A stretch of 64,000 bases of DNA. It comes from Cytobacillus oceanisediminis. Its GTDB lineage: Bacteria; Bacillota; Bacilli; Bacillales; Cytobacillaceae. The stretch spans positions 195,989 to 259,988 of the forward strand of contig NZ_SOEE01000008.1 in assembly GCF_004366035.1 (NCBI RefSeq), read 5' to 3'. Below the pieces are notes generated by a model that ran no database searches, was not told where the DNA came from, and saw only the letters and a list, made by a program, of their open reading frames with translations. Below are positions 33,409 through 55,230 of the stretch, one piece after another; the stretch's first letter is position 1, and the number at the start of each line of letters is the position of its first letter. Both the position numbers and the translations under genes were made by a program.

Positions 33409-33864
33409 ATGCAGCATGGTCAAGAGCATATCGATCATGACATGATCAAAATTGAAGTAAACCTGGATGACATACCTGGAGAATGGCTGGGACATGTTAT
33501 GGACTTATTGTTTCAATCCGGGGCCAATGATGTCTTTTATATACCGATTTACATGAAGAAAAATCGTCCGGGTACCATGCTTCAGGTTTTGTGTGATAAT
33601 AAGCAAAAATCCGAGATGATGAATATCATTTTTAGAGAAACCACCACATTGGGCGTGCGATATTATCCACTTTCTGTAAAACGTCTTGGCCGGAAATTCA
33701 GAAAGGTCGAAACACCTTGGGGAACTGTCTCTGTTAAAGAGGGGCTGATGGAAGGTGAAATAGTTCAGCAAGCCCCTGAATTCAGTGATTGCAAAGCTAT
33801 ATCTGAGCAATACGGAATTCCATTAAAATTAGTGTTTCAAGAAGTTTGGAAGCAACTAAAATAA
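33409..33864 (+). CDS. larC2: LarC2, C-terminal half of LarC as a stand-alone divergent gene
   Basis: A 151-residue protein with the LarC C-terminal signature: IKIEVNLDDIPGEWLGHVMD, then GANDVFYIPIYMKKNRPG and a KVETPWGTVSVKEG segment. In Lactobacillus LarC this half binds CTP, and larC1/larC2 are joined by ribosomal frameshifting. Here it is an independent gene with ATG 33409 after AAGGAGG, facing away from larB-larC1. It has its own terminator. The two halves must assemble as separate chains. Confidence 0.9.
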   Translation: MQHGQEHIDHDMIKIEVNLDDIPGEWLGHVMDLLFQSGANDVFYIPIYMKKNRPGTMLQVLCDNKQKSEMMNIIFRETTTLGVRYYPLSVKRLGRKFRKVETPWGTVSVKEGLMEGEIVQQAPEFSDCKAISEQYGIPLKLVFQEVWKQLK

Positions 33865-37440: not shown

Positions 37441-37508
37441 TCTTTTCACCCCTGAAATAATAGTAAGAAATCCCTGGAAGGGATGGAGTCCGTTCCAGGG
37501 ATTGGAAA

Positions 37509-39380: not shown

Positions 39381-40529
39381 TTACCATTCGGCAATGCTGC
39401 CATCTTCATGGCGCCAAATAGGATTTTTCCAATCATGTCCGGCTTCCGCTGCCTGTTTGACTTTTTCCTCGTTTATCTCAATACCCAGGCCAGGCTGATC
39501 CGGAATGTTCACATAGCCATCTTCATAGGCGAATACTTCAGGATTATGAATATAGTCGAGAATGTCCATTCCCTGATTATAGTGAATGCCAAGGCTTTGT
39601 TCCTGGATGATGAAATTAGGGGTTGAGGCATCCAGGTGAACCGAAGATGCCAGCGTCATCGGCCCAAGAGGGCAATGCGGCGCAACCGACACATCGTACG
39701 CTTCTGCCATTGCTGCGATTTTTTTTCCTTCCAAAATACCTCCCGTGTGAGAAAGATCAGGCTGGATAATATCCACATAGCCGTCTTGCAGAAGCTGCTT
39801 AAACCCCCAGCGCGTATACATTCTTTCCCCAGTGGCAATCGGGCAGGTTGTGTGCTGCGCAATTTCACGCAAAGCTTCGTTGTTTTCCGGAAGCACCGGC
39901 TCTTCTATGAACATCGGGCGATAAGGCTCCAGCTCTTTCACAAGCGTTTTGGCCATGGTTTTATGAATCCGGCCGTGGAAGTCAACGCCGATGCCAAAGT
40001 CCTTGCCGAGTGCCTCGCGAATGGATGCCACACGCTCAATCACCGCTTCTACTTTTGAAAAGCTGTCTATGTAGTTCATTTCCTCGGAGGCGTTCATTTT
40101 AATCGCTTGAAAACCCTGTTCCTGCTTTTCTTTTGCTGCTGCAGCAACTTCAGCCGGCCGGTCCCCTCCAATCCAGGAATACACCTTTATTTTCTGGCGT
40201 GCTTTGCCGCCAAGCATCTCATAGACTGGAATATTGTAATATTTTCCTTTAATATCCCAGAGGGCCTGTTCAATTCCGGAGATTGCGCTCATCAGAATCG
40301 GTCCGCCCCGGTAAAATCCTCCCCTATACAGGGTTTGCCAAATATCTTCAATGTCATTTGGATTGCGGCCAATGATATAATCTGATAGTTCATTGACGGC
40401 CGCCTTCACGGTTTCAGCCCGCCCTTCGACAACAGGCTCTCCCCAGCCGGAAATGCCTTCATCTGTTTCTATTTTTAAAAACAGCCATCTCGGGGGAACT
40501 TTATATAATAAAAGTTTCGTAATCTTCAT
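39381..40529 (-). CDS. dgoD: D-galactonate dehydratase (enolase superfamily)
   Basis: A 382-residue mandelate racemase-type enzyme very close to DgoD along its length: [84 protein letters not shown] and the ending [14 protein letters not shown]. Metal ligands are Asp in DFHGR, Glu in EEP and Glu in GER; the catalytic His is in APHCPLGP. It dehydrates D-galactonate to 2-keto-3-deoxygalactonate. Start ATG 40529 after GAGGT; TTG 15 bases upstream is less likely. Confidence 0.9.
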
Positions 40530-40619
40530 TTGGATACCTCGCAACTTTTTTATAAAAGGAGATTTCTATTCTGGAAATCTCCTTTTTATGGCGGAATGGT
40601 GCACTATACCTAATAGTTT

Positions 40620-42086
40620 TTAAGAACCTTTTATGAAAACTGTTTTAATGGCTGTATAAAATTCCTTCGCAGCTTCACCCTGTTCGCGTGAGCCAGTGCT
40701 TGAAGCTTTCATGCCGCCAAATGGAGCCTGCAGCTCTACACCAGCGCTTTCTGCATTGATACGGACAAGGCCTGCTTCAATTTCATCGATAAATTCGAGA
40801 ATGGAGCTGATATCTGAAGTAAAGATGGATGCGCTCAATCCGTATTTCGTATTGTTCGCCAATTCGATTGCTTCTTCCAGATCAACGGCTCTGATAAGCG
40901 CAATGACCGGTCCAAAGATCTCTTCCTGGGCAATCGTCATTTCAGGTGTTACTTCTTCAAAAATCGCCGGTTTAACGAAGAAGCCTTTATCATATTCTCC
41001 GCCTGTCAGCACTTCGCCGCCATGGACCAGTCTTGCTCCTTCGTTTTTCCCAATTTCAATATACTTATTGAACGTGTTAAATTGGCTTTCGCTTGCACAA
41101 GGTCCCATCCAGATGCCCTCTTCAAGGCCATTGCCGACGGTGATCTTTTCAGAGGCTTCGATTAGCTTTTGCTTAAATTCGTTATAAACCTCAGATTCCA
41201 CGATTACGCGGCTTGAAGCGGTACATTTTTGGCCGGAAGAGCGGAACCCTCCGCTGATGACAGCTTCAACAGCCTGGTCAAGATTGGCATTTTTCGTGAC
41301 AATAACAGGATTCTTTCCGCCCATTTCAAGCTGGAACTTGATGCCGCGTGCAGCTGCGGCTTTCGCTACACTCTGCCCGACACTTTCTGAGCCTGTAAAC
41401 GTAATGGCGTTCAATTTAGGGTGATCGATCAATCCCTGGCCAATAACAGAGCCTGAACCCGTTACGAAGTTTAAGACACCTTCAGGGAAGCCGGCTTCTG
41501 CAAAGCATTCGACCACCTTTGCAGCCGTGACAGCCGCTTCACTGGCAGGCTTGAATACAACGGTATTTCCGTACACAAGAGCAGGCGCAATTTTCCAGAT
41601 TGGAATCGCAACAGGGAAGTTCCAAGGAGTGATGACACCTACAACACCAAGCGGAGTACGCTTTGTGAACATAAGTGCATCTTTATCTGTTGATGGAATA
41701 ACATCCCCGTCTTTGCGCATTCCTTCTCCTGCATAATAACGAAGAATGGCAATGCCCCTGGCAGTTTCCCCTTTTGCTTCAGGAAGGGTTTTTCCCATCT
41801 CCCTTGTCATGCTTTCAGCAATTTCATCCAGCCGTGCTTCCAAGATGTTTGCTGTCTGGAACAATAGCTGTCCTCTTGCTGCCTGGCCCAGCTTGCGCCA
41901 TGCTTTCTTCGCATTGTACGCAGCTTCTACAGCCTGATTCAGCTCTGCCTCAGAAGATTTTTGTACATATCCTACAGCTTCCTTTGTAGCCGGGTTAATA
42001 CTTTCAATAACTTTTCCGGATGCGGATTCTATCCATTCATTATTAATAAAGTTACTGTACGTTTTTGTCTCAATTGTAGCTTTCAT
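40620..42086 (-). CDS. 2-oxoglutarate semialdehyde dehydrogenase-like ALDH
   Basis: A 488-residue aldehyde dehydrogenase: Rossmann NAD site with [18 protein letters not shown] and FTGSESVGQ, catalytic Glu in LEMGGKNPV, nucleophile Cys in [11 protein letters not shown]. It resembles GucD/YcbD and ketoglutarate-semialdehyde dehydrogenases of the hexarate and pentonate pathways, converting the semialdehyde to 2-oxoglutarate. Ribosome site AAAAGGAGAGG. The intergenic DNA before it carries a small piece of the dispersed repeat. Confidence 0.88.
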
Positions 42087-42200: not shown

Positions 42201-43373
42201 TTAAAACGTCGGACCAATACGCCAAATTCCAAAGTCATGCTGCTTCAGGATTTCTGCTTTTGTCAATTTGCCATTTGCTACAGCCTGGATTTCTTTCATG
42301 ATGCGTCCGCCTACTTCTCCCACCGTTTCTTTGCCGTCCACGATAGCCCCGGCATCAAGATCCATATTTTCGTTCATGCGTTCGAACATTGGTGTATTTG
42401 TTGAAATTTTAATAACTGGTGCAATTGGCGATCCGGTTGGCGTGCCGCGCCCGCTTGTGAAAAGGACAATTTGCGCGCCGCCTGCAACCATACCGGTTAA
42501 CTGTTCAATGTCATGTCCAGGAGTATCCATCCAGACCAGCCCTTTTTTGGTCGGTCTTTGTGCGTAATCAATTACTTCCTCCAGACGGGATGTACCTGAC
42601 TTTGTTGCGGCCCCAAGCGACTTTTCCTCGAGAGAGCTTAAGCCGCCTTCAATGTTGCCCGGGCTTGGATTGCCGGTACGGATGTCTACACCCATTTGGA
42701 TGGAGCGGTTTTCCATCATTTTAATGACTGCATAGGCTTTTTTGGCGACTGAGTCATTCGCTGCACGGTTGGCGAGCAAATGCTCTGCACCGATTAATTC
42801 TGTCGTTTCAGCTAAAATGGCGGTACCGCCCTGTTCTACAATCATATCGCTTGTGCGCCCAACGGCTGGATTAGCCGAAAGGCCGGAGCATGCATCAGAT
42901 CCCCCGCATTCTGTACCGACGATCAATTCGCTAAAATCGCATAGCTCCCGCTGTACCATGGAAGCATCCTGAACCATTTTTACCGCTATTTTTGCCACCT
43001 CGGCAATGGTTTGAAGTGTGCCGCCATGTTCCTGTATTGATACTGTCGCAACCGGCTTGCCGCATTTGGCAATTTCATCGCCAATGCGGTGTGCCTGATG
43101 GGTTTCACAGCCAAGGCCAAGGACGATGACACCGTAAACATTTGGGTTCATCCCCATTCCTGCATATGTTCTGGCTGTCTGATCATAATCCGTGCCAACC
43201 TGGGCACAGCCATGCTGGTGTATGAATGTAACCGTGCCGCTGACAAGCTCTGTCACCCGCTGGGCAGTTTGGGTCGCACATGTAATTGTTGGCAGGATCA
43301 TGACATGATTTCTCACTCCAACACGGCCATCAGGACGGCGGTAACCCCAAAACTGAAGTTTTTCATTAAACAA
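42201..43373 (-). CDS. UxaA-family dehydratase, large (catalytic) subunit
   Basis: About 390 residues of the altronate/galactarate dehydratase C-terminal type: FWGYRRPDGRVGVRNHVMIL at the start, GTECGGSDACSGLSANPAVG in the middle and TPGHDIEQLTGMVAGGAQIV. Cysteines in HQHGCAQVG, GLGCETHQ and ECGGSD are candidate iron ligands. It removes water from a sugar acid to give 2-keto-3-deoxy acid. The best start is TTG 43371-43373, six bases after GAGGTG and overlapping the small-subunit stop by 8 bp; in-frame upstream starts exist. Confidence 0.87.
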   Translation of the reverse strand: MFNEKLQFWGYRRPDGRVGVRNHVMILPTITCATQTAQRVTELVSGTVTFIHQHGCAQVGTDYDQTARTYAGMGMNPNVYGVIVLGLGCETHQAHRIGDEIAKCGKPVATVSIQEHGGTLQTIAEVAKIAVKMVQDASMVQRELCDFSELIVGTECGGSDACSGLSANPAVGRTSDMIVEQGGTAILAETTELIGAEHLLANRAANDSVAKKAYAVIKMMENRSIQMGVDIRTGNPSPGNIEGGLSSLEEKSLGAATKSGTSRLEEVIDYAQRPTKKGLVWMDTPGHDIEQLTGMVAGGAQIVLFTSGRGTPTGSPIAPVIKISTNTPMFERMNENMDLDAGAIVDGKETVGEVGGRIMKEIQAVANGKLTKAEILKQHDFGIWRIGPTF

Positions 43374-43662
43374 CTTTGTCACCTCTCCCTCGTTTGCCTT
43401 CGAGATTGTGAACATGAACATGCTCCCCGGCATCGATCGGGATAGCTGCCGCCCCGATCACCTCACCATATTTAATAATGTCATCACCCTGGGGAATCGC
43501 CCTGACTGCAAATTTATGGCCAAAGCGGATGGGTTCTAGAATTTTTACACGAAACTCTCTGCTCTCAAGCTTGACAATCACTTCCGCATCAGCAGGAATA
43601 TCTGATAAAGCGACAGCAACACTATCCTTTTCGTTTAAAAAAAGCGTCTTATACTCACTCAT
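43366..43662 (-). CDS. UxaA-family dehydratase, small SAF-domain subunit
   Basis: A 98-residue SAF domain: KTLFLNEKDSVAVALSDIPA, GHKFAVRAIPQGDDIIKYGE and GEHVHVHNLEGKRGRGD. In UxaA and GarD this domain is fused to the catalytic part, while in sulfolactate sulfo-lyase (SuyA/SuyB) it is a separate chain, as here. It lies directly before and overlapping the large subunit, so they form one enzyme. Start ATG 43662 after GGGGTGAGG. Confidence 0.85.
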   Translation of the reverse strand: MSEYKTLFLNEKDSVAVALSDIPADAEVIVKLESREFRVKILEPIRFGHKFAVRAIPQGDDIIKYGEVIGAAAIPIDAGEHVHVHNLEGKRGRGDKVV

Positions 43663-43666
43663 TTCC

Positions 43667-44563
43667 TCACCCCTTAGCTGCTTGCCCCACTTTTTCACTT
43701 TGGACAACCGGGTTATTGAGGATGCCGATGCCAGGAATTTCAATTTCAATCCGGTCATTTTCCGCTAATGTAAATTCGTTTGGCGGGACAACGCATGTTC
43801 CTGTAAGAAGAACTGTTCCGTCAAAAATTTGGTTATCAAGCACTAAGTACTGGACTAGCTCATCAAGTGTGCGTTTCAGCTGATTGACTTGTGCATCCCC
43901 ATAAAATACAAGCTCTTCATCGCGGTAGATGCGGCAAATAATCTGGAATTCGTAAGGATCTGAAACCGTCTCTGCCAAAACAATAGCCGGCCCAATGGAG
44001 CAGGAATTCTTCCAAACCTTTGCCTGCGGCAGGTACAGTGGATTTTCCCCTTCAATATCCCGGCAGCTCATATCGTTGCCAGCCGTATAGCCAAGAACAT
44101 AGCCCTCTTTATCAATGACCAGCCCAAGCTCAGGCTCCGGGATTTGCCAGTTGGAATCGGAACGGAGATATACAGGATCATTCGGCCCTACCGTTCTTGC
44201 AGATGTTGATTTAAAGAAAATTTCCGGACGCACTGCATCGTAGACTTTGTCATAAAACGTTTCGCGGTCAAGCTTCCCTTGTGTAGCTTCATAGTTTCGC
44301 GCTTCCCTGCTTTTTTTGTATGTCACGCCTGAAGCCCATACTTCCGGAGCATCAATTGGAGTGGTTAACCGAAGGCCTTCGATTGGCTGCTTCTCCGCTT
44401 CATCGGAAATTTGTTTTACAATATCAAACGCTGTTCTGTTATCTTCACGTGCCTTAGCAATCAACGACAAAAAATCGCTGAATGGAAGGTCTGCTACTTC
44501 ATTCTCGTTTGTTACAGCTGCAAGTTGTTTTTCATTTTCTTTTAGGTAGCGAATAATTCTCAT
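43667..44563 (-). CDS. FAH-family 2-keto-3-deoxy-pentonate dehydratase (AraD1/XylX-like)
   Basis: A 298-residue FAH-fold enzyme. The segments VWASGVTYKKSREAR, IFFKSTSARTVGPND, PEPELGLVIDKEGYVLGYTA and NDMSCRDIEGENPLYLPQAK match the AraD1/XylX branch that dehydrates 2-keto-3-deoxy-arabonate or -xylonate to 2-oxoglutarate semialdehyde. The semialdehyde dehydrogenase in the same cluster would complete that route. Metal ligands include the Glu pair in PEPELGL and Asp in NDMSCRD. Ribosome site CAGGAGG. Confidence 0.86.
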   Translation of the reverse strand: MRIIRYLKENEKQLAAVTNENEVADLPFSDFLSLIAKAREDNRTAFDIVKQISDEAEKQPIEGLRLTTPIDAPEVWASGVTYKKSREARNYEATQGKLDRETFYDKVYDAVRPEIFFKSTSARTVGPNDPVYLRSDSNWQIPEPELGLVIDKEGYVLGYTAGNDMSCRDIEGENPLYLPQAKVWKNSCSIGPAIVLAETVSDPYEFQIICRIYRDEELVFYGDAQVNQLKRTLDELVQYLVLDNQIFDGTVLLTGTCVVPPNEFTLAENDRIEIEIPGIGILNNPVVQSEKVGQAAKG

Positions 44564-44758: not shown

Positions 44759-45526
44759 TTAAATTTTTTGATATTCATAGCCGAGATCCTGTGAAATGCT
44801 GGTGCTGCATTCTTTTAGGAGTCCAACGTGATATTCACGGACCTCATCTGTAACTTTCGCTGCCGGCATAGACATGCTGATGCCTGCTATTACCTTACCG
44901 GAATAATCCTTAATTGGAACTGCATAACAGACAATGCCCGGTTCGTTTTCTTCATTATCCACTGAATAGCCAGCCGTGCGGACATGAGCTATTTCCGAGA
45001 GTAATTCTTCTTTTGAAGAGATTGATTTTGGTGTTTGTTTTGTGTACTGATAATTTTCAAGAAACTGATCCAGTTCGGCATCTGTTTTCGTTGAAATAAG
45101 CGATTTGCCTACAGCGCTTGTATGAACAGGAACACGGCGGCCAATGCGGGAATAAAGAACGGTCACACCACTTCCTTCAACCTTATCGATGTATACGCCT
45201 TCCTGTCCGTCCAGAATAACCAGATGTACCGTCAAGTTTGTCATCGCCGATATCCTTTCAAGATGCTTTCTGGCAACTTTCCGCAAATCGAGATTGCTTA
45301 GAACCATGTTGCCCCGTTCAAAAAGCTTGAGCCCCAGACGATACTTTCCATTCTCTTCGTTTTGTGAGATATACCTTTGTTCCTGCAAAGTTTTTAATAA
45401 GGAATGAACCGTGCTTTTATGCAGATTCATCCTTTTGCTGATTTCTGTAATGGTTAATTCTCTTTCCCGCTCGTCAAATAAATCCATTATTTTTAATGCG
45501 CGTTCCACTGATTGGATAATAGGCAT
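44759..45526 (-). CDS. IclR-family transcriptional regulator (KdgR-like)
   Basis: A 255-residue regulator: N-terminal winged helix (LTITEISKRMNLHKSTVHSL, about 24-43) and C-terminal effector domain (about 80-250, SRIGRRVPVHTSAVGKSLIS, GYSVDNEENEPGIVCYAVPI). IclR proteins such as KdgR sense 2-keto-3-deoxy acids and usually repress. It is the only dedicated regulator in the sugar-acid block. The palindrome GTTTTA-N5-TAAAAC before both TRAP operons is its likely operator. Confidence 0.92.
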   Translation of the reverse strand: MPIIQSVERALKIMDLFDERERELTITEISKRMNLHKSTVHSLLKTLQEQRYISQNEENGKYRLGLKLFERGNMVLSNLDLRKVARKHLERISAMTNLTVHLVILDGQEGVYIDKVEGSGVTVLYSRIGRRVPVHTSAVGKSLISTKTDAELDQFLENYQYTKQTPKSISSKEELLSEIAHVRTAGYSVDNEENEPGIVCYAVPIKDYSGKVIAGISMSMPAAKVTDEVREYHVGLLKECSTSISQDLGYEYQKI

Positions 45527-45587: not shown

Positions 45588-47792
45588 TTATTTTGCAGCC
45601 GCGCTTGCTTCTTGAAGCAAAACATCTTTTTCGTAATCCAGGACTGCATCCTCTGCTACTGCCAGCGGAACCACACCGTTTGCGGCATCAGTATGACCAT
45701 ACATGCGATTGCTTGCTGCAACCAGCTTCTGGCGTGCTTTCATTCGCCGCTTTCTCTCTACCACAAGTGATTGGCGATCTGCTTTTAAGCTGTCAGTAAA
45801 TGAATGGACAACCTGACCTGCGAAAAGCTGGGTTCTGTCTACAAAATCAATGCGGCGTCCCCGAAGCTGAAGATGTACAACATCACCTGTCTGAAGGAAG
45901 CCAATGCCGCCGCCCTCATATCCTTCCGGTGTCATATGTCCAATCGCAGCCCCGTAGGTAACGCCGGAATAGCGACCGTCACTGATAATGGTTGCGAGCT
46001 TTTTCATGATCCGGCTGGCATTAATATGCTGCATCGGAGTAAACATTTCTGGCATTCCAAAAGCAATCGGACCCTGCCCGGCAATGACAACTGAAATTTT
46101 CAATATGCCTTTTTCAGCCATCTCGTCAAATAGTTTTTCGTATGTTGCTTCTTTTAAAAGTTCCCATTCCGCTGTATTGTTATATTTCAGTGTTTCCAGC
46201 AAGAGGTTATGGTCAAATAACTTATCCTTTTTAATTTTGTTAAGCAGATTGGAGTCAAGGAGACTTCTGTTTGCATCATCTTCATTCTCAAAATAAAGAA
46301 CAAATGCAAGCTTATCATCGAACTGATCAAGCTGAGATGTCGGCATGCCGCTGATTTTTACCACTGCGCTTTCAAAGAAGTTCCCTTGCAATACATCTAC
46401 TCCGCTGAATGCCCTGCGCGGGGTTGATAAGATGACAGGATTTTCTTTTACATTGATTGCCTGCAGGCTTCGTGTAATGGCCAGACGCTCTCTCCATGTT
46501 CTGGCTGCAACGGTCGGTGCATCCTGATCCATTGGGACGCCATGTTCAAGCAGTTCGTAAAAGAGTGTTTCCATGCCCCTGCTCGTGCCGCTGCAGCACT
46601 GCATGGCGAGCGAGTAAATGTCTCGGCCTTCTGTCAGGCTGTAGTCAAACAAATCCGGAATCGGATACTCATGATGGATGCGGTCCAAATCCCATAGACT
46701 AAACTTGTATCCCCCATAGAGCATGCCTGCAACAATATGCATCATCAGGTTGGTCGAGCCGCCGGAGGCACTGTGAATGCGAATTGCGTTTTTGATATTG
46801 GCAGCCACAATATTGGAAACGCCATATTTTTCTTCATTAATCATGGTGGCAAAGCTGTCAAGAACGGCATTGATCTGCCTTTGGGTCGGAGGATCTGTCA
46901 GCAGCTCCACCGCTGGATGAACAAGTCCCAATCCGGCTACCAGATGCCTGGAGCTATTGCCGGTTCCATTAAAGGCACAAACACCGCCCTGTCCGTCACA
47001 TGTCGCAACAGCCAGCCTCATTTCAAAATATTTATGCTGTTCTTTTGTTAAAATGCCCCTCTCGCAGGCACGCTCAAAAACTCCCTGGAAGGCTGTGTTC
47101 GATGAGCATTGCAGGATGTATGCCATCGTGTCGCGCAAATCTGCAGCCACATCCGCAGCAACTTCCGCCTCTGCTTTTTTCGCCAATTCTTCCAGCTCTG
47201 CAATAACATCATCAGGGATCGAGCCGCCTTCGAGAACATGCGCCGGGGCAAATGTGGCAAAAAACGGAGCTTCTCCGCGGCTGCGCCTCACCCGGTCGAC
47301 ATGTGCCAATGCACTTACGACGCCCAGGGGCTGTTTATCACATCCTTGAATGACAAATGCACCGTGATAACTATGGGCCTCAAGCTGATTGACCACCATT
47401 TGGGCAACCGCATTCCGGCTTTGCAGGGAATAGCTCATCCCCTGATTGCTTTGGGCAGTGCCGTCACACATAACCGGTGTGGAAAAGTAAAAAGGGACTC
47501 CTCCGTTTTGCCAAATGCGGATGGCCGCGCGTGCTGAGGTTTGATAGTCCATGATGTGAGCCGGATGGTCAGATGAACCTCCGATAATGGCAATGCGCGG
47601 AGCGTTTATTTCAAGGCGATTATAAATTTCTTCAAGCGTCCAATCCGGCTTTCCGCCTTCATATGAGGAACCGAGTGTCTGTTTGGCGCGGTCCAGAAGT
47701 CCAGCTACCGTAATCGGTTCATTGGCTTTTCCCTGTACATTGTCACGATATGGATTTACAGGATTATCTATGAGCGGGTATAAATGTGTCAT
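45588..47792 (-). CDS. IlvD/Edd-family sugar-acid dehydratase, long divergent form
   Basis: A 734-residue protein, longer than IlvD or Edd (about 550-610) and YjhG (about 655). Cluster cysteines are seen in PVMCDGTAQSN, VIQGCDKQPLG and VATCDGQGGVCAFNGTGNSS; the active-site region is SDGRYSGVTYGAAIGHMTPE near 600. The family dehydrates sugar acids such as xylonate, arabonate or gluconate with a 2Fe-2S or 4Fe-4S cluster. Extra acidic sequence at about 490-560 is unusual. It follows the LarA-like gene by 54 bp. Confidence 0.82.
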   Translation of the reverse strand: MTHLYPLIDNPVNPYRDNVQGKANEPITVAGLLDRAKQTLGSSYEGGKPDWTLEEIYNRLEINAPRIAIIGGSSDHPAHIMDYQTSARAAIRIWQNGGVPFYFSTPVMCDGTAQSNQGMSYSLQSRNAVAQMVVNQLEAHSYHGAFVIQGCDKQPLGVVSALAHVDRVRRSRGEAPFFATFAPAHVLEGGSIPDDVIAELEELAKKAEAEVAADVAADLRDTMAYILQCSSNTAFQGVFERACERGILTKEQHKYFEMRLAVATCDGQGGVCAFNGTGNSSRHLVAGLGLVHPAVELLTDPPTQRQINAVLDSFATMINEEKYGVSNIVAANIKNAIRIHSASGGSTNLMMHIVAGMLYGGYKFSLWDLDRIHHEYPIPDLFDYSLTEGRDIYSLAMQCCSGTSRGMETLFYELLEHGVPMDQDAPTVAARTWRERLAITRSLQAINVKENPVILSTPRRAFSGVDVLQGNFFESAVVKISGMPTSQLDQFDDKLAFVLYFENEDDANRSLLDSNLLNKIKKDKLFDHNLLLETLKYNNTAEWELLKEATYEKLFDEMAEKGILKISVVIAGQGPIAFGMPEMFTPMQHINASRIMKKLATIISDGRYSGVTYGAAIGHMTPEGYEGGGIGFLQTGDVVHLQLRGRRIDFVDRTQLFAGQVVHSFTDSLKADRQSLVVERKRRMKARQKLVAASNRMYGHTDAANGVVPLAVAEDAVLDYEKDVLLQEASAAAK

Positions 47793-47846: not shown

Positions 47847-49097
47847 TTAATCGAGCACCAGTTCTTCAAGCTCTGAAATAATTTCTAGATTGCTATTTTG
47901 TTTTGCTTCCTCCATCATGCTCTCTGAGATCAAAATCTCGCCGATGTCTAATGTATTCTTGATTCTGACGGCTTTTACCTTGTTTAAATCAAAGGCATTG
48001 CAGGTTTTAATGGCAGCCTTGACCGCCAGCTCTTTTGTTTCTAGCACCATCGGAAGCTTAATCACTTCGATCACGGTGCTGGTCAAAGCGTTTGCATAGC
48101 CTTTTTCCCATATAATTTCATCTGCGACCGCTTTGGTTGTCATGTCCGCCATGCCAATGCCATTAGCGTTTCCATGCGTTTTTTCGGTCAGGCCCAGCAC
48201 CACGGTTCTTTTTATTTCCGGGCCGCCAGAGGCATATGGGGTAGCAAAATTCCCCGTAATGTTGGGGTCCATCCCATCACCCGAAATATCTTTTCCGAGC
48301 TCGTCGACAATCAGGACATCAAACTCATCGAAATGAATTTTGGGCATGAGGGATTTTGCTTCTTTTAATAGTTCCGGCTCCTCTGTTTCCAGATCCTCTG
48401 CCGGAACGGCAATCACTTTTGCAATCTTGTCATAAGCATTTTCAAGAGAAGCGAGACCGAAAATGATCGGAGCTTTTGATAATGAAATTTTGGCCATCTC
48501 CGGCACATGCTCTGCCATATATTTAAAGCTGTAAGCATGGGCAGCTTCCGCCCCTTTTTGCTTTCCGAGCCCGATTGTAATCATTTTCATAAGTCCGCTT
48601 TCAACCGGTCCGCGGAATGCTGTATGAGGCTTAATCCGGTTAATAACGACAATTTTGTCCGCTTCATAAGCGATTCGGTCAATATAGATCGGAAGCCCAT
48701 TTGGGAGCTCGCCAATTTTGACAACTTCCATTGAGGATTCAATCGGTGCCTCAACAGCTCCTTCCGTCACGCCCAATTGGTGAAGCACATCTATCTGGCC
48801 TTCGGCTGTGGCCCCTCCATGGCTTCCCATTGCCGGAACAATAAACGGCTTTCCGCCAACACGCTTAATTTCTCGAACCGTCTCGCGTACCAGAACAGGC
48901 AAATCAGCCAGCCCTCTGCTGCCAACTGCGATCGCAACGGAATCGCCTTCATTAATTTTAGAAAGCACATTGGTTTCATTGAGTGTTTTCCGCACCTCGG
49001 CTCCCACATCATCAAGCTGGGGTGCGTGAAATTTCTGCTTTACTTTAACCATTTTGGGAATGGGGATATCTTTTAAAATTTCTTTAATGATGTCCAT
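47847..49097 (-). CDS. LarA-like nickel-pincer racemase/epimerase (DUF2088 family)
   Basis: A 416-residue protein with the LarA N-terminal fold. AVGSRGLADLPVLVRETV, IVPAMGSHGGATAEGQ (His93), VINRIKPHTAFRGPVES (His158), GLMKMITIGLGKQKGAE (Lys171/Lys179) and AAHAYS (His187) parallel the residues of lactate racemase that hold the nickel-pincer nucleotide and catalyse hydride transfer. Bacterial LarA relatives include malate racemase and gluconate 2-epimerase. Set between TRAP genes and an IlvD-type dehydratase, and sharing the block with larB, larC1, larC2 and larE, it is probably a sugar-acid C2 epimerase. The substrate is inferred. Confidence 0.8.
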   Translation of the reverse strand: MDIIKEILKDIPIPKMVKVKQKFHAPQLDDVGAEVRKTLNETNVLSKINEGDSVAIAVGSRGLADLPVLVRETVREIKRVGGKPFIVPAMGSHGGATAEGQIDVLHQLGVTEGAVEAPIESSMEVVKIGELPNGLPIYIDRIAYEADKIVVINRIKPHTAFRGPVESGLMKMITIGLGKQKGAEAAHAYSFKYMAEHVPEMAKISLSKAPIIFGLASLENAYDKIAKVIAVPAEDLETEEPELLKEAKSLMPKIHFDEFDVLIVDELGKDISGDGMDPNITGNFATPYASGGPEIKRTVVLGLTEKTHGNANGIGMADMTTKAVADEIIWEKGYANALTSTVIEVIKLPMVLETKELAVKAAIKTCNAFDLNKVKAVRIKNTLDIGEILISESMMEEAKQNSNLEIISELEELVLD

Positions 49098-49140: not shown

Positions 49141-50415
49141 TTAATTCAGCCATTCAAGCGGCACCGTAATAATTTCCGGGAACAGGATTAAGAGCGCGAG
49201 CACAATTGCATGAACGACCAGGAATGGCCAGATGCCTTTCGTCAAGTCTGCCAGGCTGATTTTGCTTATTCCGCAGCCAACATATAAAACAGTGCCGACA
49301 GGCGGAGTAATTAATCCAATGCATAGATTGATAACCATTACAATTCCGAAGTAGACTGGATCAATTCCGGCCATTTTAACAAGCGGCATCAATACCGGTG
49401 TGAAGATCAGAATAGCCGGTGTCAGGTCCATCACAAGGCCGATCAATAATAGGAAGATCATAATGACAATCATTAACAGCAGCGGACTGCTGACAAGCGA
49501 ACCCATGTAGCCTGCAATTTCTGCCGGAACATTGGCAACAGTGATAAGCCAGGCTGATACCATTGCAGCAGCAGCCACAAACATAACCACACTCGTTGTT
49601 TTTGCCGAAGCAATTAAAACCTGATACAACTCTTCAAGCTTTAACTCCCGGTAAATAAATAACCCTACAAACAGCGCATAAAACGCTGCCACTACAGCTG
49701 CTTCAGTTGGGGTAAAAACACCGCCTCGCAGACCGCCAATAATAATGACCGGAAGCATTAACGCAAAACTGGCCTGCTGGATCGCCTTCCAGATTTCTTT
49801 AGCCGATTTCCGCGGAGGAAGTTCACTCGTATCCTTCCGTGACATAAAGAACCAGCCAATCATAAGCCCCAATCCCATCATAATGCCGGGAATAATTCCG
49901 CCCATGAATAAATCTGTAATCGATACACCTGCGGTTACCCCAAATAAAATCATGGGAATGCTTGGCGGTATAACAGGAGCAATAATACCGGATGCACAGA
50001 TGATGCCTGTAGAAGTGTTGACGTTATATCCTTTGGCAATCATCATCGGAATTAAAATCGCCCCGAGTGCGGCTGTATCCGCAACAGCAGAACCCGATAG
50101 CCCTGCAAATAAAATACTGGCAATAATGGCTACAAAGCCAAGGCCGCCTCGGATGTGCCCTACAAGCGCCATGGAAAAATCAACGATACGCTTGGAAATT
50201 CCACCGGCATTCATCAATTCTCCGGCTAAGACAAAGAACGGGATCGCCATTAACGAAAAGTTATTGGCTCCATTAATCAAATTCTGGGCAACAATTTGGC
50301 TATCAAACGTACCCATGGCAAACATCAGCATAACCCCGCTGGCAAGCAGTGCGAATGCAATCGGCACCCCTAATGCCAGCGATCCAAATAGTGACCCTAA
50401 GAATACTCCTATCAT
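49141..50415 (-). CDS. TRAP transporter large permease (DctM), system 1
   Basis: A 424-residue protein with about twelve membrane segments; LAGELMNAGGISKRIVDF, GLSGSAVADTAALGAILIPM and IIAPVIPPSIPMILFGVT are DctM hallmarks. It is the sodium-driven transport unit for organic or sugar acids captured by the binding protein at 51073. It follows dctQ by 30 bp and precedes the LarA-like gene by 43 bp in the same direction. Confidence 0.93.
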   Translation of the reverse strand: MIGVFLGSLFGSLALGVPIAFALLASGVMLMFAMGTFDSQIVAQNLINGANNFSLMAIPFFVLAGELMNAGGISKRIVDFSMALVGHIRGGLGFVAIIASILFAGLSGSAVADTAALGAILIPMMIAKGYNVNTSTGIICASGIIAPVIPPSIPMILFGVTAGVSITDLFMGGIIPGIMMGLGLMIGWFFMSRKDTSELPPRKSAKEIWKAIQQASFALMLPVIIIGGLRGGVFTPTEAAVVAAFYALFVGLFIYRELKLEELYQVLIASAKTTSVVMFVAAAAMVSAWLITVANVPAEIAGYMGSLVSSPLLLMIVIMIFLLLIGLVMDLTPAILIFTPVLMPLVKMAGIDPVYFGIVMVINLCIGLITPPVGTVLYVGCGISKISLADLTKGIWPFLVVHAIVLALLILFPEIITVPLEWLN

Positions 50416-50445
50416 GGCGAGTGTTGCCCTCCTTTCTTGCCGCCG

Positions 50446-50997
50446 TTATTTTGCGATAATCTTATCTTCCTGATCAGGGTGATTATCCGATAAAACATCG
50501 TCCGGGGATTGGATGATCGTTAAGCTTTCAGACTTTCCTCTGATGGCTTTAAAAAGGCTGGCAATAATGAGGATCATCATCCAAATGCTTGATACAATCC
50601 CGATTCCATACAGATAGGAAAGCGGCATTCCTGTTGCGGGACCTGTACTGTTCATATTGAGAAGGGTCATTTTCCAGCTTCCTTCCAAAACAAGCCATAG
50701 CAGATAAAGGACCACTGCATTGCTGATCAGGAAGGCAGCCTTTTGAAGCCCCTTTGGCAGCGAATTGACGACAATGTCTACACCAAGGTGCATTTTATCC
50801 TTTAATGCGGCAATGGCACCCAGGAAGACCATCCATACGAATAAGTAGCGGGACATTTCTTCAGACCAGGTAAGACCGGAGTTGAACACATATCTCAAAA
50901 CGACATTTCCAAAGACGGAGAGGGACATGGCTGCCAGCGAAAAGGCAATCGCAATGTTTAATAGTTTGGTAGAAAAAGAATTAATTTTGCTAAACAC
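50446..50997 (-). CDS. TRAP transporter small permease (DctQ), system 1
   Basis: A 183-residue membrane protein with four segments and the DctQ motif VLRYVFNSGLTWSEEMSRYL followed by FVWMVFLGAIAALKDKMHLG. The C-terminal tail is hydrophilic and acidic. It supports DctM assembly and couples to the binding protein. Start GTG 50995-50997 after GGAGG. Confidence 0.93.
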   Translation of the reverse strand: MFSKINSFSTKLLNIAIAFSLAAMSLSVFGNVVLRYVFNSGLTWSEEMSRYLFVWMVFLGAIAALKDKMHLGVDIVVNSLPKGLQKAAFLISNAVVLYLLWLVLEGSWKMTLLNMNSTGPATGMPLSYLYGIGIVSSIWMMILIIASLFKAIRGKSESLTIIQSPDDVLSDNHPDQEDKIIAK

Positions 50998-51023
50998 GGC
51001 TTTCTCCTCCCTGCAAATTTAAA

Positions 51024-51058
51024 CCTGGAGGAATAAAAGGCATTATTATTCCTCCAGG
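51024..51058 (-). terminator. Intra-operon hairpin after the TRAP 1 binding-protein gene
   Basis: CCTGGAGGAATAA / TTATTCCTCCAGG stem followed on the minus strand by TTTAAATTTG, between dctP and dctQ. Probably gives partial termination or mRNA protection so that the binding protein is made in excess. Confidence 0.7.
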
Positions 51059-51072
51059 CCTTCCTGCTGGTT

Positions 51073-52101
51073 TTACTCTGCTTCTGCACGGATACGGTCA
51101 GCTAAATCCTTCGCCCATTCAAATTCACTGTAAATTTTTTCATATAGAGGCTGTGCTGCTTCTTCCATCTCAGCTGAAAACTCTCCTGAAGGAGTCGTAA
51201 ACTTCAGGCCATTATCCTCGAGAAATTTCTTATCTTCTTCATAGCTCTTCTCAAGCAGTTCAAATTCATAATCTGCAGCTTCCTTTGAAGCCTTTTCAAT
51301 AATCTTCTGCTGCTCTTCAGTCAAACCATTCCAAAAATTACTGTTGATGATATACAAGTTCGGACTAAACATATGCTTTGATTCCAGGATATCGCTTTGT
51401 ACTTCATACCAGCCAGATGCCCGAACTGTGGCAATTGGGTTATCCTGGCCATCCACCACTTTTTGCTCCATCGCTGTGAAAACCTCGGAAATTGGCAGCG
51501 GCGTTACATTGGCGCCAAGCAATTTTCCAAGTTTGATATAGTTTGGGATATTCGGCATTCTCAGGCGGAGGCCGTCAAAATCTGCTAAGCTGCCAATTGT
51601 TTGATTGGATGAGAACATCCGGAACCCATTCGCACTCCAGGCAAGCGGCTTTACGCCATGCTCTGACTCAAGGTCTGCTGTCAGCTCTTTGCCAATCGGT
51701 CCATTTAACACCTTTTTGGCATGTTCAAAGTCTTTGAATAAGAACGGCCATTCAGGTGCGGCCATCTTCGGAATATCCGCCTGCATGATCAAGCCCGGGA
51801 TTCCCATTTCGATAGTCCCATTGCGGACACCGTCATAGAATTCCTTTTCAGCACCAAGCGTGCTGTTTGGGTAAAGTTGCACTTCAAGCTCTCCGTTGCT
51901 TTCTTCTTCTACAATCGTTTTAAACTTTTCTTTTAAGGCAACATTCTGGGGATGGTCTTCAGCAAAGTAGTGTGCTACTTTAATTACCTTCTTCTTTCCT
52001 CCCCCATTTTCGCCCCCTGCCTCTTCCCCGCCGCAGCCGGCAAGGAATAAAAAGCTTGCCAGAACAGCAGTGGCCAGGCCAAATATCTTCTTCTTTTTCA
52101 T
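51073..52101 (-). CDS. TRAP transporter substrate-binding lipoprotein (DctP), system 1
   Basis: About 342 residues; MKKKKIFGLATAVLASFLFL followed by the lipobox LAGC. DctP features are GAEKEFYDGVRNGTIEMGIP, PEWPFLFKDFEHAKKVL, GLRLRMPNIPNYIKLGKLLG (substrate-carboxylate Arg) and VVDGQDNPIATV. It binds an organic acid outside the cell, probably a sugar acid given its neighbours. Start ATG 52099-52101 is six bases after GGGGAG; the ATG two codons earlier overlaps that site. A GTTCTA-N5-TAAAAC operator lies about 50 bp upstream. Confidence 0.93.
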   Translation of the reverse strand: MKKKKIFGLATAVLASFLFLAGCGGEEAGGENGGGKKKVIKVAHYFAEDHPQNVALKEKFKTIVEEESNGELEVQLYPNSTLGAEKEFYDGVRNGTIEMGIPGLIMQADIPKMAAPEWPFLFKDFEHAKKVLNGPIGKELTADLESEHGVKPLAWSANGFRMFSSNQTIGSLADFDGLRLRMPNIPNYIKLGKLLGANVTPLPISEVFTAMEQKVVDGQDNPIATVRASGWYEVQSDILESKHMFSPNLYIINSNFWNGLTEEQQKIIEKASKEAADYEFELLEKSYEEDKKFLEDNGLKFTTPSGEFSAEMEEAAQPLYEKIYSEFEWAKDLADRIRAEAE

Positions 52102-52153
52102 CTTCATCTCCCCTTCTTTAAATTTGCTGTTTAGAATCTAAATTTGAGTTTTG

Positions 52154-52253: not shown

Positions 52254-53519
52254 TTATAAGAACAGCAATGATAGCTGCGGCGCAACAACGATAATTAGCA
52301 AGGTAATCAGCATCGCAAAGAAAAACGGCACAATCGCTTTTGACAATTGCTCAAGTGACAAGCCGGAGATTCCTGCCCCAACAAATAAGTTAACTCCAAG
52401 AGGCGGTGTGATGAACCCAATTGACAGGTTTACAATCATGATAATCCCGAAGTGAATCGGATCGTATCCAATCTGAAGGGCAACCGGGAGCAGGATTGGC
52501 GTTAAAATGATAATCGCAGCAATCGTGTCCATAAAGCACCCTACTATCAATAGCAATAATGTAATCAGCAGCATGATGATGAGCGGCTCGCTGGAGATGG
52601 ACATCATTGCTTCTGCAATCTGATTCGGGATTTGCTCGATCGTTAATAGGCGGCCAAATGCTGTGGCAGCTCCCACGATCACAAGCACCGTGGCTGTCGT
52701 TAACGCAGAATCAACAAAAATCTGCGGCAGATCTTTGAATTTCAATTCTTTATATACGAAAACACTGACGATTAATCCGAATACTACGGCGACAACGGCT
52801 GCTTCTGTCGGGGTGAAAACGCCCCCATAAATGCCCCCTAAAATAACAATCGGAATCATGAGAGCCCATTTGGCCTCCCAAATTGCTGTAAAAATGCCTT
52901 TTATGGTTGTTTTTTGATCTGTTCCGGTATACCCCATTTTTTTCGAATGGATATAAGAATAAATCATTAAGCCAATCCCTACGAGAATTCCTGGGATGAT
53001 CCCGGCAATAAACATATCCCCAATCGATACACTTCCGGATACACCGTAAATAACCATTGGAATACTTGGCGGAATGATAACCCCGATGGAACCTGCTGCA
53101 GCAACAACTGCAGTCGCAAAACGTTTATCATACCCTTTTTGAACCATGGCAGGAATCATGATCCCGCCGATCGCCGCAACGGTCGCAGGCCCTGAACCGG
53201 AAATTGCCGCAAAAAACATACAGGTAATGATGGTAGCCATCGCAATGCCGCCTGTTTTATTACCGACCATTGAATCTGCTACATTAAAGAGCCGCTTGGA
53301 TATTCCGCCCTTCCCCATTATTTCGCCTGCGATAATGAAGTAAGGAACAGCCAATAGAGGAAATGAGTCAACAGAGTTTGTTAATTCTTTCATTAAAAAT
53401 TCAACTGGCATACTGCCGGTATATAAAATAGTGAATAATACCGCTAACCCGATTGCGATTCCTATGGGAACTGTAAGAAATAGGAATGCTGCGAAGGAAC
53501 CGAATAATACACCTGCCAT
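52254..53519 (-). CDS. TRAP transporter large permease (DctM), system 2
   Basis: A 421-residue DctM with about twelve segments; IAGEIMGKGGISKRLFNVAD, ISGSGPATVAAIGGIMIPAM and GVIIPPSIPMVIYGVSGSVS identify it. It shares the domain plan of the system 1 protein but is clearly diverged, so the two systems are not a recent duplication. It is the last gene of the operon, with a strong terminator 25-65 bp after the stop. Confidence 0.93.
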   Translation of the reverse strand: MAGVLFGSFAAFLFLTVPIGIAIGLAVLFTILYTGSMPVEFLMKELTNSVDSFPLLAVPYFIIAGEIMGKGGISKRLFNVADSMVGNKTGGIAMATIITCMFFAAISGSGPATVAAIGGIMIPAMVQKGYDKRFATAVVAAAGSIGVIIPPSIPMVIYGVSGSVSIGDMFIAGIIPGILVGIGLMIYSYIHSKKMGYTGTDQKTTIKGIFTAIWEAKWALMIPIVILGGIYGGVFTPTEAAVVAVVFGLIVSVFVYKELKFKDLPQIFVDSALTTATVLVIVGAATAFGRLLTIEQIPNQIAEAMMSISSEPLIIMLLITLLLLIVGCFMDTIAAIIILTPILLPVALQIGYDPIHFGIIMIVNLSIGFITPPLGVNLFVGAGISGLSLEQLSKAIVPFFFAMLITLLIIVVAPQLSLLFL

Positions 53520-53548
53520 TCAGAGCCTGCCTCCTTTAATAAATTCTT

Positions 53549-54082
53549 CTAAATCACATTAATAGTTTGTTCTGCATCTTTTGGGAGTTCATGAGTTTTA
53601 TCAAAGTTTTTAATCGCTATAATATTGCCGATTATGTTCTGAATCAATCTAATGCCCGCAAGCCCCATGCCAACGGGAGGAGCCAGATAAACGATTCCTG
53701 TTGGAATTTGAAGTGCCGGTGTTGTCTGTCCAAATAAAAGCAGCTGGGATGCAATGCCATAGCCATAGATCCCAACATACACGCAGAAAACCAAAAAGAG
53801 GATATTAGAGATGAGAGAAAAATAAATTTTCGTTTTATCTTTAAAAAGAATAAGTGCAGCATCCACCTTAATATGGCGATGATGCTTGACTGCGTAGCTT
53901 ATTCCGATATAGATAAGCCAGATAAAGCAGTACCGCGCAAGCTCCTCAGACCATGACAATGAATTTGACATGACATAGCGCATAAATACCTGGATAAAAA
54001 TGACCGTAACCATGACAGTCGATAAAAGAAACAGTATGTACTTTTCGAGGTTTTCATCAAGCCATTTTAATGGTTTTAGCAT
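53549..54082 (-). CDS. TRAP transporter small permease (DctQ), system 2
   Basis: About 177 residues with four segments; FMRYVMSNSLSWSEELARYC is the DctQ signature. Start ATG 54082 (MLKPLKWLDENLEKYI) after GAGAGGCG is preferred; the longer frame to 54145 reads through an intergenic hairpin. It acts with DctP2 and DctM2 in uptake of an organic acid. Confidence 0.9.
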   Translation of the reverse strand: MLKPLKWLDENLEKYILFLLSTVMVTVIFIQVFMRYVMSNSLSWSEELARYCFIWLIYIGISYAVKHHRHIKVDAALILFKDKTKIYFSLISNILFLVFCVYVGIYGYGIASQLLLFGQTTPALQIPTGIVYLAPPVGMGLAGIRLIQNIIGNIIAIKNFDKTHELPKDAEQTINVI

Positions 54083-54103
54083 ACTGGATCGCCTCTCTTC
54101 TTT

Positions 54104-54139
54104 AAAAAGCGGCCGGCAATCAGTCGAAAGCCGGCTGCT
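54104..54139 (-). terminator. Intra-operon hairpin after the TRAP 2 binding-protein gene
   Basis: AGCAGCCGGC / GCCGGCCGCT stem followed on the minus strand by TTTTT, between dctP2 and dctQ2. Same position as the hairpin in the TRAP 1 operon. Confidence 0.7.
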
Positions 54140-54150
54140 TATCAAAATAA

Positions 54151-55203
54151 TTATTTTGCCTTATCAACTTCAGCCAGGAACTCGTCTACAATTTCAGCAC
54201 CGATTTTATCCTTGTACTTACCAACAACCGGCTTCACAGCTTCCTGGAATTTTTCAAATTCTCCATCCTTGATTTCTGTAAAAGTCATTTCCTTCTTTAA
54301 CGTTTCAAGTGATTCCTCCGCTACTTCACGTGTACGCTCACGGTTGAATTTGCCTGCTTCTAATGCAGCTTTAGAAACCACTTCCTGCTGTTCAGCGGAA
54401 AGCTGTTCCCAAATTTTCTTACTGAATAAGAAAATAAACGGTGTGTATACATGATTTGTATTCGAAACATGCTTCTGAACCTCAGGGTACTTACTTAACA
54501 AAATGGTTGGATATGGATTTTCCTGTCCATCGATCGTACCCTGCTGCAATGCAGTGAACAATTCAGTGAATGCCATTGGAGTTGGGTTTGCACCAAGAGC
54601 TTTCCAAGCATCTAAGTGGATTTCATTTTCCATTGTACGGATTTTCAAGCCTTTAACATCTTCCATTGTCGCAACAGGTTTTACATCGTTTGTTAAGTTA
54701 CGGAAGCCATTTTCCCACCATGCAAGACCAACAAGACCTTGCTGATCAACCATCTCAAGCATCTTATCTCCAAATGGGCCATCCAATACCTTGTCTGCTA
54801 CTTCCTCATTCGGAACCGTGAATGGAAGATCAAATACCCCGAACTCCGGTATAAAGTTTACAAGCGGTGATGTAGATGGAATCGTCACATCTAGCGTGCC
54901 GAACTGAAGCATTTCAATCGCTGAACGGTCATCGGCAACCTGGCCGGAATGATAAACTTCAACTGTTAAATCGTCAGACTCTGCTTCAACAAGCTCTTTA
55001 AATTTCATAGATGCTTCATATTCTGGATGCTTGTCATTAACCCCAATACTAACCTTAATCGTACGCTTGCCGCCTTCACCGCTTGCACTATCTGATGACC
55101 CTTTCTCAGAAGCGCCGGTCGAGCTTGAATTTCCTCCGCAGGCCGCCAGTACCATTGTGCTGATCATTAAGATACTAAGAAATAAAATGGACAATTTCTT
55201 CAT
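54151..55203 (-). CDS. TRAP transporter substrate-binding lipoprotein (DctP), system 2
   Basis: About 350 residues; MKKLSILFLSILMISTMVLA followed by lipobox LAAC. DctP blocks: FGTLDVTIPSTSPLVNFIPE, FDLPFTVPNEEVADKVL, GLKIRTMENEIHLDAWKALG and GTIDGQENPYPTIL. It captures an acidic substrate for the adjacent permeases. Start ATG 55201-55203 lies seven bases after GAGGGGG. Two copies of a 30-bp direct repeat and a possible CcpA site lie in its upstream region. Confidence 0.92.
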   Translation of the reverse strand: MKKLSILFLSILMISTMVLAACGGNSSSTGASEKGSSDSASGEGGKRTIKVSIGVNDKHPEYEASMKFKELVEAESDDLTVEVYHSGQVADDRSAIEMLQFGTLDVTIPSTSPLVNFIPEFGVFDLPFTVPNEEVADKVLDGPFGDKMLEMVDQQGLVGLAWWENGFRNLTNDVKPVATMEDVKGLKIRTMENEIHLDAWKALGANPTPMAFTELFTALQQGTIDGQENPYPTILLSKYPEVQKHVSNTNHVYTPFIFLFSKKIWEQLSAEQQEVVSKAALEAGKFNRERTREVAEESLETLKKEMTFTEIKDGEFEKFQEAVKPVVGKYKDKIGAEIVDEFLAEVDKAK

Positions 55204-55230
55204 CAATCTTCCCCCTCAACTATTTTAAAA

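Follow-up and report, generated by a model that had tools for sequence, protein, structure and literature searches.

LarA22, a LarA-like protein of nickel-pincer group 22, as a candidate aldonate C2-epimerase in a sugar-acid gene cluster of Cytobacillus oceanisediminis

We analysed a 64,000-nucleotide stretch of the Cytobacillus oceanisediminis genome (contig NZ_SOEE01000008.1, positions 195,989 to 259,988; hereafter the window). It carries larA22, a gene for a LarA-like protein lying within a long run of sugar-acid catabolic genes. We lean towards the reading that larA22 encodes a nickel-pincer aldonate C2-epimerase coupled to a dehydratase, which would convert (2S,3S) acids into their (2R,3S) epimers. 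This reading starts from the fold, the active-site residues, the gene order and the conserved neighbours. Under it the protein would be loaded with the nickel-pincer nucleotide (NPN) cofactor, would depend on nickel, and would hand its product to the dehydratase encoded by the next gene, ilvDx. A C2-epimerase feeding a dehydratase had been suggested by a first-pass annotation of the stretch, and it remains the best-supported reading: of the 16 loci in the window's clade, 14 have ilvDx near the gene; in a sample of genomes of the class, 25 of 39 ilvDx genes are no more than 6 kb away from a group 22 gene; and the arrangement recurs in two of the five plasmid regions examined.

Fold and active-site residues of the larA22 protein

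The larA22 open reading frame spans exactly 47847-49097 on the minus strand, starts with ATG and encodes 416 residues. The NCBIfam model NF052515, "nickel pincer cofactor-dependent isomerase, group 22", matched residues 13-400 with 558.6 bits (cutoff 400, E = 7e-168), and the second-best model, that of the LarAH6 malate racemase, scored 36.8 bits. In Pfam, Lar_N matched with 44.4 bits (cutoff 23.3) and DUF362 with 28.4 bits; the C-terminal LarA domain, whose Pfam name we take to be Lar_C, gave no Pfam match at E <= 0.001, and this region is covered by the fold comparison alone. The suggestion that the family might be new has to be dropped, as group 22 is already catalogued; its name gives no substrate. 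Judging from that name, the NCBIfam group number appears to be the one used by Desguin et al. in 2020, whose study distinguishes 25 groups of LarA homologues and reports assays of 13 proteins, none of them numbered 22 in the parts of the article available to us (PMC7583248). The term "group 22" is absent from the main text of PMC7583248, PMC11770544, PMC12611868 and PMC11796402, and the open-licence literature yielded no assayed group 22 member, no pentonate link and no description of this context.

Searches of PDB sequences gave weak results: the single sequence found LarA at E values of 0.006-0.05, and a profile search with a 46-row family alignment returned one chance match alone (Hax3, E 2.8). 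The assignment to the LarA fold was settled by fold comparison. An AlphaFold2 model, built from 46 sequences (45 of the 80 related loci described below plus the window), had a pLDDT of 94 and a pTM of 0.89. When it was compared with the PDB by Foldseek, the top 18 matches were all LarA, Mar2 malate racemase or LarA-like proteins (E 2.9e-13 to 3.4e-9), the 19th match having an E value of 2.7e-3. We also aligned the 46-row family alignment by hhalign with seven bona fide LarA proteins, kept from 12 extracted LarA open reading frames of which several were wrong or cut. Residues 8-409 aligned with residues 12-417 of LarA (probability 86, E 5e-6).

In this alignment R61, H93, H158, K171 and H187 of the larA22 protein pair with R75, H108, H174, K184 and H200 of LarA, whose NPN-binding and catalytic roles are described in PMC11770544. 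All five residues were invariant in 30/30 and in 46/46 aligned sequences, the window included. The first-pass annotation had listed H93, H158, K171, K179 and H187 in LarA-like contexts. Each of these residues is present, and K171 is the counterpart of LarA K184, which K179 is not. A further lysine, K269, is invariant in the family, its pairing with LarA K298 being left unestablished by hhalign, which is unreliable in the C-terminal part. The same alignment has a gap at LarA F175/F176 and is unreliable by W358/T359 (GntE has E, V, A and H at these four positions). Together, the model and the alignment support a LarA fold for the larA22 protein, with all five NPN/catalytic residues predicted to be in place.

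Gene order around larA22 and its conservation

larA22 is the seventh gene of a 20-gene run on one strand, which begins at 55206 and ends at 33970, no gap between its genes exceeding 195 bp. It lies 43 bp from dctM on its upstream side and 54 bp from the IlvD/EDD-family gene on its downstream side, that is, between TRAP genes and a dehydratase gene as had been noticed before. A scan for promoters and terminators was uninformative (23 promoter-like sites for 32.9 expected; 27 terminator-like sites for 21.9 expected). The genes of the run, followed by the cofactor-supply genes, are listed below.

52254..55206, minus: TRAP transporter 1 (DctM, DctQ, DctP), family matches
49141..52107, minus: TRAP transporter 2 (DctM, DctQ, DctP), family matches; nearest solved relative of DctP, 4pbq (E 2e-80)
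47847..49097, minus: larA22, LarA-like nickel-pincer isomerase of NCBIfam group 22, 416 aa (NF052515, Lar_N, AlphaFold2, Foldseek)
45588..47792, minus: ilvDx, long IlvD/EDD-family dehydratase of an unnamed subfamily, 734 aa (Pfam ILVD_EDD_N and ILV_EDD_C over cutoffs)
44759..45526, minus: IclR-family regulator, KdgR-like (IclR_C 175.6 bits; KdgR model 229.6, cutoff 275)
43667..44563, minus: fah1, FAH enzyme (PDB 2q18, E 2e-70, 240.5 bits; next chain 71.5 bits)
43366..43758, minus: SAF-domain small subunit of a UxaA/GarD-type dehydratase (SAF 34.3 bits); as listed it overlaps fah1 by 92 bp, and the true start may lie lower
42201..43433, minus: large subunit of the UxaA/GarD-type dehydratase (GD_AH_C 332 bits; sole PDB match at E <= 1e-5, galactarate dehydratase 6u7l, E 1e-72)
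40620..42086, minus: alpha-ketoglutaric semialdehyde dehydrogenase (NF042993 855.6 bits, cutoff 770)
39381..40544, minus: galD, enolase-superfamily galactonate dehydratase (NF010624 686.3 bits, cutoff 311)
38453..39364, minus: DHDPS-family aldolase/dehydratase, YagE-like (PDB YagE, 3n2x and 2v8z, 221 bits; next 137)
37509..38456, minus: U32-like protein, weak peptidase-U32 match (PF01136 26.2 bits, cutoff 22.4; no NCBIfam match at E <= 0.001)
36481..37449, minus: D-2-hydroxyacid dehydrogenase (2-Hacid_dh_C 203.6 bits)
35577..36461, minus: second FAH-family enzyme (FAA_hydrolase 266 bits)
34615..35571, minus: kdgK, PfkB sugar kinase, 2-keto-3-deoxygluconate (KDG) kinase-like (PfkB 226.5 bits; NF040938 225.5, cutoff 400)
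33970..34599, minus: eda, KDPG/KHG aldolase (TIGR01182 188.9 bits, cutoff 156)
33409..33864, plus: larC2, divergent from larB (identified from 57-69% identity with larC2 of related loci, where it mostly adjoins larC1)
32607..33347, minus: larB (NF033503 291.3 bits, cutoff 175)
31857..32579, minus: larC1 (TIGR00299 222 bits, cutoff 90)
31012..31836, minus: larE with a CXXC-C motif, CYYC and then ACLSSR (TIGR00268 346.8 bits, cutoff 150)
30340..30963, minus: short NicO-like nickel permease, weak match (PF03824 30.3 bits, cutoff 27.7, residues 7-71; TIGR00802 23.1, cutoff 333)

The conservation of this order was followed in 80 named loci, the best 80 of at least 586 confirmed stretches; being the best-scoring part of a longer list, they lean to the window's clade and the next. 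The tree, made with FastTree only, holds 135 of 137 proteins (two were dropped by length) and has several long branches. Neighbouring genes were identified by BLAST with a small reference set of our own, so that only gene types in that set were detectable, and the fetched flanks end at 10 kb, beyond which further genes may lie. The window's clade comprises 16 of the 80 loci (support 94). Both ilvDx and fah1 were found in 14/16 of them, an IclR gene in 13/16 and the semialdehyde dehydrogenase gene in 11/16. Gene counts were then made on the 14 loci having ilvDx (L033-L043, L045, L046 and L048); since they were picked by its presence, ilvDx is found in 14/14 by construction. The other genes occurred as follows: fah1 in 14, IclR and the second TRAP DctM in 13 each, the semialdehyde dehydrogenase and the DHDPS-family gene in 11 each, the UxaA/GarD large subunit in 10, the U32-like gene and larE in eight each, galactonate dehydratase in seven, larB in six, and kdgK and eda in three each. 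ilvDx directly follows the larA22 homologue in 12/14; at L040 a galactonate dehydratase gene lies between the two, and at L037 a galactonate dehydratase gene and one open reading frame. In the shortest version (L042, L043 and L045, from Anoxybacillus and Parageobacillus), larA22, ilvDx, iclR, fah1 and the semialdehyde dehydrogenase gene are followed by larE, larB and larC1.

The remaining two clade loci have other surroundings, one lying beside a gene for a GGDEF protein and the other near genes for a cytochrome oxidase, a dienelactone hydrolase and a phosphoesterase. The record of L033 is titled Pseudomonas sp. ISL-84; its cluster is 88-99% identical to the window, and the title is probably wrong or the record contaminated.

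The association with ilvDx was also seen in a sample of 398 genomes of the class, chosen regardless of larA: ilvDx was present in 39 genomes, group 22 in 57 and both in 31 (Fisher p 3e-23, uncorrected for relatedness). Members of the ilvDx subfamily (about 734 aa) have extra segments, and those of three of the 39 genomes contain in-frame stops. All NCBIfam matches of ilvDx itself fell far below cutoff (best 183.9, cutoff 644), while C151, C272 and the serine of its GRYSG motif, S609, were invariant in 22/22 aligned IlvD proteins. On plasmids, five regions were examined out of 113 records with a homologue. Two roseobacter (alphaproteobacterial) plasmids have homologues, 52% and 44% identical, that adjoin a gene of the altronate dehydratase family, thus repeating the arrangement of larA22 with a dehydratase. 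Both loci add an IlvD/Edd or L-arabinonate dehydratase gene, a DHDPS-family gene and larC, and that of Loktanella also has larB and a possible larE. A Paenibacillus plasmid carries the gene set of the sister clade described below. Next to a Rubrobacter plasmid homologue lies an enolase-superfamily gene on the opposite strand.

The cofactor-supply genes had been placed in the same block as larA22. larB, larC1 and larE are indeed present in that block and over their cutoffs; the five genes occupy 30340-33864, after the catabolic run and not beside larA22; larB, larC1, larE and the permease gene are 14-17 kb downstream of larA22, which lies upstream on the same strand. The expected larC2 and nickel permease were likewise found, larC2 on the plus strand and the permease by a weak match. 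larC1 and larC2 are separate genes in the window. larC2 lies 61 bp from larB and on the strand opposite to larB, larC1 and larE; elsewhere larC2, where found, shares the strand of larA22. The CXXC-C pattern is that of the [4Fe-4S]-type LarE of Thermotoga maritima, as far as described in PMC9283937. By its motif, the LarE of the window would belong to this iron-sulfur type rather than to the sacrificial single-cysteine type. In the 5.84 Mb assembly, no protein but that of larA22 matches Lar_N at E <= 0.001, and a search with it at E <= 10 finds only itself, so that the lar genes of the window have one evident client. LarB, LarE and LarC1 with LarC2 would build the NPN cofactor.

A different set of neighbours was found in the sister clade. 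We chose 43 Bacilli loci by eye (L053-L100 without L054, L055, L060, L096 and L098), and within 6 kb of the group 22 gene we found a short-chain dehydrogenase/reductase (SDR) gene in 40, an FGGY kinase gene in 35, any of larB, larC or larE in 26, a 6-phosphogluconate dehydrogenase gene in 20, a glucuronate isomerase gene in nine and a sugar-acid dehydratase gene in none. The best model for the SDR representative was D-mannonate oxidoreductase (276 bits, cutoff 281), and that for the kinase representative gluconokinase (478 bits, cutoff 649); the 6-phosphogluconate dehydrogenase and glucuronate isomerase representatives were over cutoff. The sister clade of the tree holds 46 loci (support 97), adding L051 (none of these genes), L055 (SDR only) and L060, which has IlvD, UxaA/GarD and galD matches and neither SDR nor kinase. 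It is joined to the window's clade with a support of 88, L049, L050, L052, L054 and L103 falling on the window's side. These genes could form a route from glucuronate through fructuronate to D-mannonate and, past a gap, from D-gluconate to 6-phosphogluconate, with the larA22 homologue filling the gap between mannonate and gluconate; GntE is thought to fill the same gap in Thermotoga, in the account given by PMC7583248. Judged by its neighbours, the sister-clade enzyme probably acts as a D-mannonate 2-epimerase, one that falls outside the GntE groups known so far, and since the context fits D-mannonate to D-gluconate, the nearest inferred reaction is (2S,3S) to (2R,3S).

Proposed pathway and competing readings

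In the pathway that we propose, the TRAP transporters would import an aldonate whose C2 is epimerised by the larA22 protein. By the mechanism of LarA, H93 and H158 would alternate as acid and base, and the NPN, bound through K171 and R61 and with H187 as a ligand of its nickel, would take the C2 hydride and return it via a 2-keto intermediate. This would yield the (2R,3S) aldonate, the form accepted by sugar-acid IlvD/EDD dehydratases, which ilvDx would dehydrate to a 2-keto-3-deoxy acid. The fah1 product would convert the latter to alpha-ketoglutarate semialdehyde, and the semialdehyde dehydrogenase would produce 2-oxoglutarate; the YagE-like aldolase might cleave the same 2-keto-3-deoxy intermediate in a side branch. 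The closest PDB relative of fah1 acts on what D-pentonates yield on dehydration, converting it to alpha-ketoglutarate semialdehyde. In Herbaspirillum, two FAH/MhpD-type enzymes with this activity use D- and L-forms, according to the sections of PMC6336799 at hand. A sugar-acid IlvD/EDD dehydratase was reported to take D-xylonate (2R,3S) and not D-ribonate, D-arabinonate or D-lyxonate (2S,3S), an (R) configuration at C2 being essential (PMC9314677, in part). A C2-epimerase placed upstream would therefore rescue (2S,3S) acids. As fah1, the YagE-like enzyme and the IlvD stereochemistry fit pentonates, we rank the pair D-lyxonate/D-xylonate first. The more specific proposal, that larA22 encodes an enzyme epimerising pentonates at C2 (D-lyxonate to D-xylonate, and perhaps D-ribonate/D-arabinonate too), which would open a non-phosphorylative pentonate pathway as its stereochemical funnel and be paired with a new long IlvD/EDD subfamily, is plausible and still short of probable. 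A UxaA/GarD-type protein is known as a D-arabinonate dehydratase (PMC6336799, same sections), and the split UxaA/GarD pair of the window might thus serve (2S,3R) acids.

The main rival keeps the C2-epimerase and changes the acid. The pair interconverted by larA22 would be D-mannonate/D-gluconate or else D-talonate/D-galactonate; KDG or its galactose counterpart KDGal would then be made by ilvDx or galD and passed to kdgK and eda. The sister clade, with its mannonate-oxidoreductase-like and gluconokinase-like genes, speaks for this, as do the strong galD match and the kdgK and eda genes of the window, all three pointing to hexonates. So does the second DctP: its nearest solved relative, the Haemophilus L-gulonate binding protein 4pbq, was solved with L-gulonate, and the candidate ligands in thermal-shift assays were L-gulonate and D-mannonate (PMC5788505, as far as seen). 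However, kdgK and eda were each found in 3/14 of the counted clade loci, against 14 for fah1 and 11 for the semialdehyde dehydrogenase (the 10-kb flanks may hide some), and we regard a hexonate substrate as possible rather than probable. The estimates for pentonates and hexonates both overlap with that for the general epimerase reading, and the one for hexonates also covers a route through galactonate dehydratase. An aldarate or 2-hydroxy-dicarboxylate epimerase, acting on a C5/C6 diacid that the UxaA/GarD-type enzyme and the semialdehyde dehydrogenase would then consume, would agree with the GucD-type dehydrogenase being over cutoff and with the galactarate-dehydratase relative in the run, and D-arabinarate epimerisation is described as a side activity of one LarAH (PMC11770544, in part). 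This reading is unlikely: no UxaA/GarD large subunit turned up in 4/14 counted loci, whereas ilvDx, by which they were picked, is in all. We give least credence to a LarA-fold protein that binds no NPN or that performs some other hydride transfer. Its similarity to LarA is low, as the Lar_N score and the missing match to the C-terminal domain indicate, but the five residues are invariant in all 46 sequences and larB, larC and larE are linked to the gene.

Several observations weigh against an aldonate C2-epimerase coupled to ilvDx or against the pentonate version of it, beyond the hexonate-type genes and the DctP relative already mentioned. The LarA-family matches of the model had TM scores of 0.42-0.57 and root-mean-square deviations of 5.7-9.5 A over 312-451 alignment columns. 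In the PDB, ilvDx comes closest to dihydroxy-acid dehydratases, with about 104 bits against 57 for galactonate and L-arabinonate dehydratases, so that its substrate is a guess from context, and a dihydroxy-acid dehydratase was reported to take D-ribonate and D-xylonate alike (PMC9314677). Two of the 16 clade loci, L044 and L047, have none of the catabolic run, and 8/39 ilvDx genomes of the class sample are without a group 22 match. Gene context was not always predictive of LarAH activity in the study of Desguin et al. (PMC7583248). Across the phylum, finally, a dehydratase of the detectable types lay within 6 kb of the group 22 gene in 12/52 loci, against 1/8 controls.

The 52 phylum regions, one per genome, were hand-picked from the 85 of 398 phylum-sample genomes that had group 22 over cutoff; 33 were left out, including several of the best-scoring, and the controls were eight stretches lying 200 kb or 1 Mb away in eight of the same genomes. 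The phylum is probably Bacillota, some contigs being common to the sample and the named loci. With a dehydratase near just 12/52, the dehydratase-coupled role does not extend to the whole family, and a pairing of group 22 as a whole with dehydratases was not upheld. A TRAP gene lay within 6 kb in 16/52 loci and in 0/8 controls. Within 4 kb there was a GlcD-like gene in 13/52 and an LdhH/GlcF-like gene in 11/52, each named from one representative, and because of these neighbours we consider group 22 mixed in function. At eleven loci (L116, L117, L119, L132, L133, L139, L142, L143, L145, L149 and L150), group 22 adjoins GlcD-like and LdhH/GlcF-like genes, some with TRAP genes, and may have a different, oxidase-linked role.

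Two haloarchaeal names also appeared among the group 22 matches. The Haladaptatus homologue (L191), which is annotated DUF362 and comes from the fifth plasmid region, follows an L-lactate permease gene and is perhaps a lactate racemase within group 22. Haloferax volcanii, a control genome, has a group 22 match over cutoff; a 2021 annotation paper states, in the part available, that this organism has larBCE-like genes and may contain an NPN-cofactor enzyme (PMC8305020), which the group 22 protein may be.

Comparison with known systems

LarA lactate racemase shares with the larA22 protein the fold and the five NPN/catalytic residues. It differs in that its equivalog model, NF033504, scored 22.4 bits against a cutoff of 460, and the assignment of larA22 as a lactate racemase was rejected. 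LarA_Bw and LarA_Sp, described with one catalytic histidine in the available part of PMC12611868, were among the Foldseek matches (9q3j and 9q3k). As H158 is invariant in the larA22 family, the single-histidine type of LarAH (group 17 type, with Asn for the second catalytic His) was rejected as well. The D-gluconate 2-epimerases GntE (LarAH19, LarAH20 and LarAH15) resemble the proposed enzyme in using NPN and in having C2 of an aldonate as their site of action (PMC7583248 and PMC11770544, both in part). LarAH19 and LarAH20 belong, in these same parts, to other groups; no GntE-named model is among the NCBIfam matches of larA22, and the neighbour of larA22 is a dehydratase gene.

The contexts of group 22 thus give candidate substrates, mannonate or gluconate for the sister clade and a dehydratase-coupled aldonate for the window's clade. 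Sugar-acid IlvD/EDD dehydratases being strict at C2, a C2-epimerase would account for bacterial use of the wrong epimers; if it is one, the enzyme would be useful for producing 2-oxoglutarate from rare sugar acids. The likely role of the sister clade as a mannonate epimerase would be new. So would the role proposed here for larA22, namely that of a stereochemical gate in a non-phosphorylative route, serving a long IlvD/EDD dehydratase of an unnamed subfamily. With the Weimberg-type pentonate pathways, as presented in the available part of PMC6336799, the window has in common a dehydratase, an FAH-type 2-keto-3-deoxypentonate dehydratase and a semialdehyde dehydrogenase. Unlike our proposal for larA22, no dedicated C2-epimerase is named there, the 2-epimerisation of D-arabinonate to D-ribonate being a mere side reaction of an enolase-type L-fuconate dehydratase.

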